The notes below the pieces were generated by a model, which was given only the letters and a program-made list of their open reading frames with translations, did no database searches and was not told the DNA's origin. A DNA stretch of 64,000 bases from Amycolatopsis nigrescens CSC17Ta-90 (GTDB lineage: Bacteria > Actinomycetota > Actinomycetes > Mycobacteriales > Pseudonocardiaceae). Where the stretch lies: the NCBI RefSeq assembly GCF_000384315.1, contig NZ_ARVW01000001.1, positions 6,262,157 through 6,326,156 of the forward strand, read 5' to 3'. The translations under genes and the position numbers were made by a program. This document shows positions 53,071 through 55,785 of the stretch, one piece after another (position 1 is the stretch's first letter; every line of letters begins with the position of its first letter).

Positions 53071-54108
53071 GGGGAGCTGGGCGATGGACCGCTCGGCCTC
53101 GGCCACCACGCCCTCGACCAGCTCGGCCACGCTCGGCAGGTCGCCCAGCAGGCCGACGACCTGCCCGGAAGCGAGCACCCCGGCGCCGGTGTCCCCGTCC
53201 ACCAGCCCGGCCCGCAGCAGCATCGGCGTGTTCGCCGCCATCAGCACCTGTGCCCAGGTGCGGTCCCCGCCGCGTTTCATGGCCAGACCTTCACGGGCCA
53301 TCGCGAGCCAGGACAGCCCGGTGAGCCGCCGGAAACGCACCGCGTTCGCCGCCGCGCGGGCGAAACCGGTGGCCGGGCCGGACCGTTCCAGCGCCTCGAC
53401 CAGCTCGGTGCGCAGCACCCGGTGCGGCATGCCGTCCACCTTCCTGGTGACCACCGTGTCGTTCAGCCCGCGCCGCAGATAGGCCTGTTTGACCGGTTCG
53501 GGCACCGTGCTCTCCTTGGTCAGCAGGAACCGCGTGCCCATCGCGACTCCGGCCGCGCCGTAGGCCAGCGCGGCGGCGAGCCCGCGGCCGTCGAAGAAGC
53601 CGCCGGCGGCGACCACCGGGATGTCCACCGCGTCCAGCACCGACGGCAGCAGCAGGGTGGTGGCCACCCCGCCGGTGTGCCCGCCGCCCTCGCCGCCCTG
53701 CACGATCACCGCGTCGGCGCCCCATTCGGCCACCTTCACCGCGTGCCGGGCGGCGCCGACCGAGGGGATCACCACGATGCCGGCGTCTTTCAGCCGCGCG
53801 ATCATTTCCCGGCGCGGGGCCAGCGCGAAGGACGCGACCCGGACCCCTTCGGCGACCATCAGGTCCACCCGGCGGCCGGCGTCCTCGGCGTCCGCGCGCA
53901 GGTTGACCCCGAACGGCCGGTCGGTGCGCTCCTTGGTCTCCTGCACCGCGAGGGCGAGCTCGTCGAAGCTCATCGTTGCCGAGGCCAGGATGCCAAGCCC
54001 GCCGGCCTCGGCGGTGGCCGACACCAGCCGCGGCCCGGCGACCCAGCCCATCCCGGTCTGCACCACCGGATGGCGCACCCCGGTCAGCTCGGTCAGCGCC
54101 GTCCTCAT
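53059..54108 (-). CDS. ipdC: IpdC: NAD(P)H-dependent flavin oxidoreductase (nitronate monooxygenase family)
   Basis: An FMN TIM-barrel protein of 349 residues of the nitronate-monooxygenase/2-nitropropane-dioxygenase family: LTGVRHPVVQTGMGWVAGPRLVSATAEAGGLGILAS (N-terminus), WGADAVIVQGGEGGGHTGG (about 130-148) and IPVVAAGGFFDGRGLAAALAYGAAGVAMGTRFLLTKES. The order echA20-ipdA-ipdB-ipdC equals Rv3550-Rv3553. There it acts as a flavin reductase/dehydrogenase in HIP degradation. Its last codons and TAG stop are part of a GGCAAATAG palindrome. The start overlaps the ipdB stop by 4 bp. Confidence 0.87.
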   Translation of the reverse strand: MRTALTELTGVRHPVVQTGMGWVAGPRLVSATAEAGGLGILASATMSFDELALAVQETKERTDRPFGVNLRADAEDAGRRVDLMVAEGVRVASFALAPRREMIARLKDAGIVVIPSVGAARHAVKVAEWGADAVIVQGGEGGGHTGGVATTLLLPSVLDAVDIPVVAAGGFFDGRGLAAALAYGAAGVAMGTRFLLTKESTVPEPVKQAYLRRGLNDTVVTRKVDGMPHRVLRTELVEALERSGPATGFARAAANAVRFRRLTGLSWLAMAREGLAMKRGGDRTWAQVLMAANTPMLLRAGLVDGDTGAGVLASGQVVGLLGDLPSVAELVEGVVAEAERSIAQLPEGK

Positions 54109-54851
54109 GACGGGACCTCCTTGTCCCGCAAGGACTTCGGGTCGACCACCGTGCGCAGCAGCCGCAGCTCCTCCGCCGTCGGCGCCCTGGTTTCGGTGGT
54201 CCGCGAGGTGTCCAGCTCGAAGGAGGTCGCCTCGGTCACCTCGGCCACCGTCACCCCCGGATGCACCGACAGCAGCCGCATCGCGTGCCCGGCACCGCCG
54301 AAGTCCAGCACGCCGAGGTTGGTGACCACCCGGTGCAGGTCGTGGAACCGCCACGCGGACGGTCCGGCCTGTTCCGCGCGGTCATAACCGACCCCGGAAA
54401 CCACGTCCACCTCCGGCACGAACACCCTGGTGCCGTGCCTCGGCACCCAGTAGCTGGTGCGGTGGTTGACCGTGTTGCCGGGACCGCCGCGCACCCCGAG
54501 CAGCTGCTTCTTCGGCCGGGCGTGCTCGCCGATCGCGGAGATGTTCTGGTTGCCGTACCGGTCGATCTGGTTGGCGCCCATCACCACATGCCGGTTTCCG
54601 TGCGGCACCACGGTTTCCAGCACCTTGCGGAAGGGCTGCCAACCTTCGATCACCGGCTCGCCGCCGGTGTTCGCCAGCAGGTATGCCTCGCCGTCGGACA
54701 GCAGCAGATCGGGCTCGAAGGTGAGCCTGGCCAGCTTGGCGCCGATCGAAGGCAGCAGGCCCATCGGGCTGACCACGATCTCGCCGTCGCCCCGGAACAG
54801 CTCGGCGCACGCCACCGCCGCGTACTCGGCCCTGGTGACTGTGGTGCTCAT
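54105..54851 (-). CDS. ipdB: COCHEA-CoA hydrolase subunit IpdB
   Basis: A CoA-transferase-family beta subunit of 248 residues: YAAVACAELFRGDGEIVVSPMGLLPSIGAKLARLT, RHVVMGANQIDRYGNQNISAIGEHARPKKQLLGVRGGPGNTVNHRTSYWV and TNLGVLDFGGAGHAMRLLSVHPGV. IpdA-IpdB, although CoA-transferase-like, is a hydrolase that opens the last steroid ring of COCHEA-CoA. The usual catalytic CoA-transferase Glu context is altered (GANQID), as expected for IpdB. Its ATG overlaps the stop of the 25-residue ORF that separates it from ipdA. Confidence 0.9.
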   Translation of the reverse strand: MSTTVTRAEYAAVACAELFRGDGEIVVSPMGLLPSIGAKLARLTFEPDLLLSDGEAYLLANTGGEPVIEGWQPFRKVLETVVPHGNRHVVMGANQIDRYGNQNISAIGEHARPKKQLLGVRGGPGNTVNHRTSYWVPRHGTRVFVPEVDVVSGVGYDRAEQAGPSAWRFHDLHRVVTNLGVLDFGGAGHAMRLLSVHPGVTVAEVTEATSFELDTSRTTETRAPTAEELRLLRTVVDPKSLRDKEVPS

Positions 54852-54925
54852 GCCGCCTCCTGTGTCTTGCGGGGCACCCGCACCCGGTCGGCCCGCATGA
54901 ATGGGGCTCCGCCAGTGTCAGTCAT
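54848..54925 (-). CDS. Possible 25-residue microprotein between ipdA and ipdB
   Basis: The ORF overlaps ipdA by 4 bp at its start (ATGA) and ipdB by 4 bp at its end (ATGA). GAGGAGGCCGC is directly upstream of its ATG, a strong Shine-Dalgarno, and CAGGAGGCGGC at its own 3' end serves ipdB. The peptide begins MTDTGGAPFMRADRV and ends PRKTQEAA; it is basic and has no signal or membrane segment. The similar sequences at its two junctions suggest it arose by duplication of the ipdA-ipdB boundary. Translation looks likely; function unknown. It may only couple translation, or it may be a subunit. Confidence 0.5.
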   Translation of the reverse strand: MTDTGGAPFMRADRVRVPRKTQEAA

Positions 54926-55785
54926 GCGGCCTCCTCGGTGAACCGGGCCACCTCGGCCTGGTAATGCGCCTCGTCGCCGGAGAGGAAGCGGTCCACGAAC
55001 TTCGGCCACTCGCCGGGATCCTTCGCAGCCGCCACGTAGTGCCGCTGGAATCGTTCGTCGCGGCCGTAGTCCGGGGCGGCGGTGGTGAAATGCGCGCCGT
55101 TCGGCGTTTCCGCGACGCCGTGCACCAGCCCGCGGCTCAGCAGCAGGCTCTGCACCGGTGCGGTCGCGGTCAGTTCCGCGGTCTCGACGACCTTCTCCAC
55201 CGAGACGTAACAACGCTTCGCGGCGAGCGCGAACAGTTCGTCGAAATACGGGTCCGGGCCGAGGTACTGCGCGTTGCCCCTGGCGTCCGCCCGGTTGAGG
55301 TGGACCAGCGCGGCGTCCAGCTCCAGCGCGGGCACCGCGAGCAGCTCCTCGCCGTCCGGGTAGGGCGAGCGCACGGTCTTCAGGTGCGGGTTCAGCCGGA
55401 GCACGTCCGAGCCGAGGCCGGCCCTGGTCGGCAGGAACGGCAGCCGCCCGGCGGCGGCGGAAAGCCCGGTGCCGAACACGCCTTCGTCGTACTCGGTCAC
55501 CTCGATCTCACCCGCCTCGCGGACCCTGCCGAACCACGGGTCGTAGGGCACCGAGTCCAGGGTGACGAAACCGAAGACCAGCCGTCGGATCTTGCCGGCC
55601 GAAGCGAGCAGCCCGACGTCCGGACCGCCGTAGGACACCACGGTCAGATCCCGCAACGGCGAGCGCAGTATCGCGCGCACCAGCGCCATCGGCTTGCGCC
55701 GGGAGCCCCAGCCGCCGATGCCGACGGTCATCCCGTCGGTGAGCTCGGCGACCACCTCGTCCGGGGTCATCCGCTTGTCGGCCAT
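54922..55785 (-). CDS. ipdA: COCHEA-CoA hydrolase subunit IpdA
   Basis: A CoA-transferase-family alpha subunit of 287 residues: MTPDEVVAELTDGMTVGIGGWGSRRKPMALVRAILRSPLRDLTVVSYGGPDVGLL, FGFVTLDSVPYDPWFGRVREAGEIEVTEYDEGVF and LDAALVHLNRADARGNAQYLGPDPYFDELFALAAKRCYVSVE. The paired subunit is ipdB. It is coupled to echA20 upstream by an overlap (ATG/TGA) and to the 25-residue ORF downstream. Confidence 0.91.
   Translation of the reverse strand: MADKRMTPDEVVAELTDGMTVGIGGWGSRRKPMALVRAILRSPLRDLTVVSYGGPDVGLLASAGKIRRLVFGFVTLDSVPYDPWFGRVREAGEIEVTEYDEGVFGTGLSAAAGRLPFLPTRAGLGSDVLRLNPHLKTVRSPYPDGEELLAVPALELDAALVHLNRADARGNAQYLGPDPYFDELFALAAKRCYVSVEKVVETAELTATAPVQSLLLSRGLVHGVAETPNGAHFTTAAPDYGRDERFQRHYVAAAKDPGEWPKFVDRFLSGDEAHYQAEVARFTEEAA

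Follow-up and report, generated by a model that had tools for sequence, protein, structure and literature searches.

REP, MITE and stem-loop repeats are small, dispersed sequences without a gene of their own. For the MIRUs of mycobacteria, the source cited for insertion at start codons and for a coupled ORF is reportedly Supply 1997. In PMC12548453, MIRUs are likewise described as inserting at start codons and as carrying an internal ORF coupled at -4 nt, and this coupling is said there to likely minimise the impact on the host gene. Supply 1997 is also cited in PMC3635867. PMC4213456 gives MIRU unit lengths of 77 and 53 bp, and PMC2267715 describes stem-loop families of bacteria, one of which contains the MIRU repeats.

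The window analysed here, a stretch of 64,000 nucleotides from Amycolatopsis nigrescens CSC17Ta-90, carries ipdA (54922..55785, 287 aa) and ipdB (54105..54851, 248 aa) on its minus strand, separated by a small minus-strand ORF of 25 codons plus stop (54848..54925). We regard this ORF as very probably a copy of a short interspersed repeat that was inserted in the ATGA overlap of ipdA and ipdB so that coupling is preserved, its peptide being a by-product. The products of ipdA and ipdB matched the A and B chains of the solved structures 6co6/6con (best values 2e-114 and 1.6e-95), which are named there CoA-transferase alpha and beta subunits and which we take to be IpdAB. The small ORF begins with an ATG at 54925-54923, encodes MTDTGGAPFMRADRVRVPRKTQEAA and ends with a TGA at 54850-54848. 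It shares one ATGA with the ipdA stop (54924-54922; overlap at 54922-54925) and another with the ipdB start (54851-54849; overlap at 54848-54851), and GGAGG lies ahead of both the small-ORF start (GAGGAGGCCGC at 54936-54926) and the ipdB start (CAGGAGGCGGC at 54862-54852). The preliminary description, a 25-codon ORF with an ATGA overlap and a Shine-Dalgarno sequence on each side, was therefore exact, and its observation that the end of the ORF supplies the Shine-Dalgarno sequence of ipdB was confirmed.

The unit has the order target copy, loop, inverted target copy (T'), constant core and target copy, all read on the minus strand. The left target copy T (GGAGGCCGCATGACTG, 54919..54934), which contains the Shine-Dalgarno sequence, the ipdA stop and the small-ORF start, is followed by the semi-constant loop of the first hairpin (54903..54918) and by T', a site-matched inverted arm (ATTCATGCGGGCC, 54890..54902) that is largely complementary to the left target. 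The constant core (GACCGGGTGCGGGTGCCCCGCAAGACACAGGAG, 54857..54889) is the dispersed part of the unit and contains a possible short hairpin, TGCGGG-TGC-CCCGCA (54882-54868). The right target copy (CAGGAGGCGGCATGA, 54848..54862) holds the Shine-Dalgarno sequence and start of ipdB and differs from the left copy, GAGGAGGCCGCATGA, at 2 of 15 positions; the near-identical junctions had been attributed to a duplication, and they do resemble copies of a target site. The unit with its flanks (54842..54939, minus strand) matched the covariance model R1 with 106.4 bits, the window copy itself being among the 24 copies used to build the model.

We collected 80 named relative loci via ipdB and found that 73 of them have a direct 4-bp ipdA/ipdB overlap without a wedge, including the nearest by ipdB, Amycolatopsis anabasis (L004; 88% identity in IpdA and 83% in IpdB). 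The empty junction of A. anabasis reads GAGGAGGCCGCATGA, 15 bases that are identical to the left flank in the window up to the ATGA. Direct overlap was also observed at 29 of 29 loci in a second set and at 18 of 21 loci in a further set, both of which partly repeat named strains; the three exceptions in the further set were L147, L148 and L156, the last with a decayed unit. Qaidamihabitans albus (L017) carries the same unit as the window at its ipdA/ipdB junction, which is occupied also in the genomes G201 (two tandem units), G357 and G358 (decayed). L034 and L072 have short gaps between the two genes, L034 also having an upstream start with which a 4-bp overlap would result, and the junction of L071, the seventh of the 80 rows without the overlap, was not parseable.

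Other sequences were also seen at this junction. In Prauserella shujinwangii (L005), with which L148 is listed, 388 bp of a different tandem repeat with a unit like GCACCCAATGTGGCGTTCGGTGC lie between ipdA and ipdB. Two Nocardia loci (L074 and L081) have a different, 45-codon ORF between the genes with ATGA overlaps on both sides; the wedge peptide of N. veterana, read by eye, is MTNENSTSAPREPHPNRTRMRVVFSRPGVMTVRFDQAPVPTEERR. In both loci a copy of the window's repeat lies just upstream of ipdA, near 1935, and there is no closed small ORF at this copy in N. veterana.

The core is dispersed. Allowing at most three mismatches, 68 of the 390 family genomes contained its 3' half, GACCGGGTGCGGGTG(C/T)CCCGCAnGACACAGGAG, with 7 copies in the own genome and 37 in one other genome, and a reversed-pattern control gave 0 in every row. 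The repeat unit is about 74 bp long, and core copies occur in tandem at about 71-85 bp in several genomes. When 397 genomes were drawn evenly from the order, 25 contained the core; 2 of these did not belong to the family and were both members of genus g20 (family f8), which is probably Nocardia, a genus with named copies (L074, L081 and an N. farcinica record). The core gave no match in phages and one match in the plasmid collection, in the Nocardia farcinica record. The covariance model gave 74 matches in the own genome at E<=0.1, the top 16 of which belong to the same class as the window copy. Ten downstream proteins scanned in the own genome were of unrelated kinds, including a thiolase, a GntP permease, a protocatechuate dioxygenase, FtsX and a response regulator.

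Some copies stood out on inspection. At L282 and L283 in the own genome, about 20 bases were identical by eye on both sides of each copy, which points to a duplicated target of about 20 bp; each of these copies lies just upstream of an open frame, that of L282 being a flavin oxidoreductase resembling GltD. The L114 copy has an inverted arm of 14 bases and is contained in a long open frame that looks by eye like a polyketide synthase linker, so the repeat may also add protein sequence. At L135 the unit appears, by eye, to extend the upstream protein.

For the analysis of insertion sites, 172 distinct copies were reduced to 133 by removing internal tandem units and then to 100 independent sites by removing those with similar upstream flanks. 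NTGA was found just after the core at 80 of these sites, upstream at 77 and on both sides at 69, the last compared with 12 of 744 offset controls and 14 of 99 opposite-strand controls. The NTGA-NTGA spacing was 2 mod 3 at 50 of the 69 two-sided sites (p about 4e-11). A closed small ORF between the NTGA sites flanking the core was present at 53 of the 100 sites (controls: 1/744 offset, 9/99 opposite strand), and at 43 sites one open frame of 60 codons or more ended with the left TGA and another began with the right NTG (controls: 4/744 and 4/99, respectively). Left and right flanks of 54 copies matched at 12.0 compared with 8.5 after shuffling, as expected for target duplication. Together, these results indicate that the unit favours stop/start overlaps, duplicates its target and has a length of mostly 3n+2. 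Since NTGA was missing on at least one side at 31 of the 100 sites and 19 of the 69 two-sided sites were outside the 3n+2 register, coupling is not kept everywhere.

T and T' covary among copies. T' comprises roughly 13 bases ahead of the core and tends to be the reverse complement of the sequence to the left of each copy. Against its own target T' scored 8.33 across 54 copies, compared with 5.71 when the arms were shuffled among copies (0/5,000), and 8.23 compared with 5.48 across the 100 sites (0/10,000); the same shuffle test on the loop of the 100 sites gave nothing (4.06 vs 4.23). A shuffle within genomes, which removes lineage effects and included 88 of 104 sites (18 genomes with at least 3 sites each), gave 8.38 vs 6.30 (0/10,000). 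At 29 of the 100 sites the own arm was the best or tied best of all arms, and T' had its better fit to the left target at 51 sites and to the right target at 11, with no difference at 38. All 16 sites of the own genome exceeded their mean with other arms, L165 barely (6.0 vs 5.7).

The stem was also evaluated in an alignment (A1) of 24 of 27 ungapped copies, from which L130, L206 and L244 had been left out beforehand as misaligned by eye; L244 has no convincing T'. In this alignment 89.6% of cells were paired compared with 75.2% after shuffling (0/500). The stem covariation was 0.446, compared with 0.187 after shuffling (0/500) and with at most 0.086 in slid controls, a comparison that favours the stem because it was defined from the same sequences; the shuffle tests on the 100 sites and within genomes do not depend on this definition. 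Twelve of the 13 proposed pairs were standard in at least 16/19 or 20/24 sequences with letters, and the pair at columns 15/51, adjoining a bulge, failed in 12 of 24. Pairs changed on both sides, one of five stem measures, numbered 8, which was not unusual (116/500 shuffles). Single-column covariation, first calculated on the 27 ungapped copies, had given modest values, which we ascribe to the one-base bulge; the bulged alignment was clear.

In the predicted fold of the window copy, T' pairs with the left target, and the stretch is no more stable than its shuffles (z -0.67 and -0.10); four other copies gave z values of -1.86 to -2.75. The T:T' stem was predicted in L285, L197 and L200, and L281 was predicted to prefer another pairing. 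A known RNA family was considered for the unit and set aside, Rfam 15 giving no match at E<=1 in 54500-55300 of the window.

The own genome also contains a related repeat, which we call class II. Its core, GATCGGGTGCGGGTGTCCCGCAAGATTCTG, is nearly the same as that of the window repeat, and its hairpin is constant (GATGGGGGCATGCGAGGCTTTTTGCGCATGCCCCCATC / CTGAGATGGGGGCATGCGAGGCTTTTTGCGCATGCCCCCATCGATCGGGTGCGGGTGTCCCGCAAGATTCTGAG), in contrast to the site-matched hairpin of the window class. All 14 of the own-genome matches at ranks 17-30 of 74 (L286-L299, 41-48 bits) are class II, and this class is probably more numerous, since 44 weaker matches rank below those inspected. Since a near-identical core is present on a constant hairpin too, whatever spreads the repeat may recognise it by its core.

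According to the reading that we prefer, insertion of the repeat into the ATGA overlap would have duplicated GGAGGnnnnATGA, so that ipdA keeps its stop while ipdB keeps its ribosome-binding site and start. A ribosome would end ipdA at the first ATGA, restart there on the small ORF, read the unit as 25 codons and stop at the second ATGA, where ipdB would start with its own GGAGG ahead. The unit, presumably a mobile one, would be tolerated because its 3n+2 length and lack of stop codons keep the coupling, and the small-ORF peptide would be a by-product. T and T' may form a hairpin in the mRNA over the small-ORF start codon, in which case access to this start would be largely restricted to ribosomes that come from ipdA. 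Translational coupling had also been proposed in the preliminary description, and the layout of the junction fits it; the wedge could possibly change the IpdA:IpdB ratio as well.

That the ORF instead encodes a true microprotein, a third component or chaperone of IpdAB, seems to us very improbable. The open frame, the Shine-Dalgarno sequence and the overlaps are all present, and in 47 of the 53 closed small ORFs the core falls into one shared frame, DRVRVSR.TQE, which leaves some peptide role conceivable; the remaining 6, on the other hand, use other frames, and none of the six frames of the consensus core contains a stop, so that being open does not single out one frame or strand. By codon position, the core differed from the consensus 49 times at the first, 100 times at the second and 49 times at the third, and 47 of these differences were silent and 151 were not, a silent share of 0.237 compared with the 0.303 expected under 4:1 transition weighting; this deviation (p 0.044) is in the direction of fewer silent changes. 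The core differences thus show no preference for silent changes and no hint that the peptide is kept by selection. Absence from close relatives had been named beforehand as evidence against a protein, and it is what the direct overlaps at 73 of 80 and 29 of 29 loci represent. The idea of a conserved microprotein does not agree with relatives that lack the ORF, with the same core adjoining unrelated genes or with amino acids that are not spared, and that of a third component of the hydrolase is unsupported, the ORF being absent from the closest relatives found. We consequently rejected the microprotein or hydrolase-subunit reading on the basis of the empty relatives and the lack of amino-acid saving. 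Nor is it at all likely that the ipdA/ipdB junction was simply duplicated locally in tandem, with no inserted repeat and no mobility: the near-identical flanks and the tandem arrays of the unit at several sites agree with such an event, but it leaves unexplained why the core recurs across the own genome and across genera, and this dispersed core makes it unlikely.

An RNA regulatory element that is maintained at the ipdA/ipdB junction, where it sets the subunit ratio or stabilises the message and its hairpin is the selected part, is an unlikely but more serious alternative. It would account for the T:T' covariation and for the 74 GU-type compared with 9 AC-type mismatches between T and T' (98 of the 100 sites), a bias that constraint on the sense RNA strand would produce. 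However, the GU count is inflated, because the surplus of G in T' extends to other opposing bases (A.G 27, G.G 29), long complementary arms are also present where there is no start codon (L285, L281) or where the unit lies within an ORF (L114), Rfam contains no match, and the window stretch does not fold more stably than its shuffles.

For the inserted repeat, the origin of T' is a separate question. At ipdA/ipdB, empty relatives already carry the target sequence, so it was presumably T' that came to match T rather than T that came to match T'. Tentatively, the element may, on inserting, incorporate a reverse complement of its landing site by target-templated snap-back synthesis; this would explain the long arms at L285 and L281, sites without a start codon, and, if true, would define a new small mobile element whose hairpin has host ribosome-binding and start/stop sequence as one arm. 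With the same reserve, T' may have been inherited and corrected later by template switching, for which no new enzyme is needed; the L277 arm has at one position the base of the target of L164 and not of its own (by eye), which hints at inheritance of the arm. Maintenance of T' by selection on the mRNA hairpin, as the excess of GU-type mismatches suggests, is only slightly less probable than these two, none of the three being more likely than not.

The window repeat resembles MIRUs in several respects. It is short and dispersed, with some copies in tandem; it occupies NTGA stop/start sites with target duplication at 69 of 100 sites, the other 31 not; and, judged from the layout alone, its small ORF has the -4 spacing to both neighbours at 53 of 100 sites. 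The published MIRU lengths, 77 and 53 bp, are both 3n+2, like the usual length of the window repeat. Homology to mycobacterial repeats was considered and not detected in 60 genomes of one f8 genus, by inference Mycobacterium: R1 gave 37 weak matches in 26 of these genomes, with at most 25.1 bits (vs 106.4 for the window copy), and in the 12 of the 37 that were compared the best core-like stretch was 8-17 of 33 bases off the core, the closest being L303 and L305 with 8 and 10 differences. We took these matches as chance. A motif that is presumably MIRU was dispersed and in tandem in 33 of the same 60 genomes. By eye, 40 copies of this mycobacterial motif lay mostly at NTGA sites and had a largely constant interior and no target-matched arm. 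The site-matched arm thus distinguishes the window repeat from MIRU, although the constant interior is a criterion in our own wording, judged by eye on the mycobacterial side. The window repeat would therefore work like MIRU without being MIRU by the tests made here. It would extend the MIRU way of life beyond mycobacteria, and the lack of a sequence match suggests that the ATGA overlap was adopted convergently as a safe place to insert.

We found no prior description of the repeat or of a target-derived inverted arm, and no match to the core letters, in a search of open-licence literature with few terms, and we know of no bacterial repeat with a site-matched arm. Such repeats could be called genes by annotation or ribosome profiling, and for Amycolatopsis and its actinomycete relatives one class of apparent microproteins would be explained as coupling-preserving repeats; the site-matched arm also makes the origin of such repeats testable. 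Quasi-palindrome correction could make T' complementary to T after insertion via template switching in the hairpin; it is a mutation process and is not known as a feature of a repeat family. No terminal inverted repeats of the unit were apparent by eye. REP, MITE and stem-loop families are also small, dispersed and hairpin-forming, whereas here the stem changes with the insertion site. Together, these comparisons support the notion that the unit between ipdA and ipdB belongs to a new family of MIRU-like repeats whose hairpin is matched to the insertion site.
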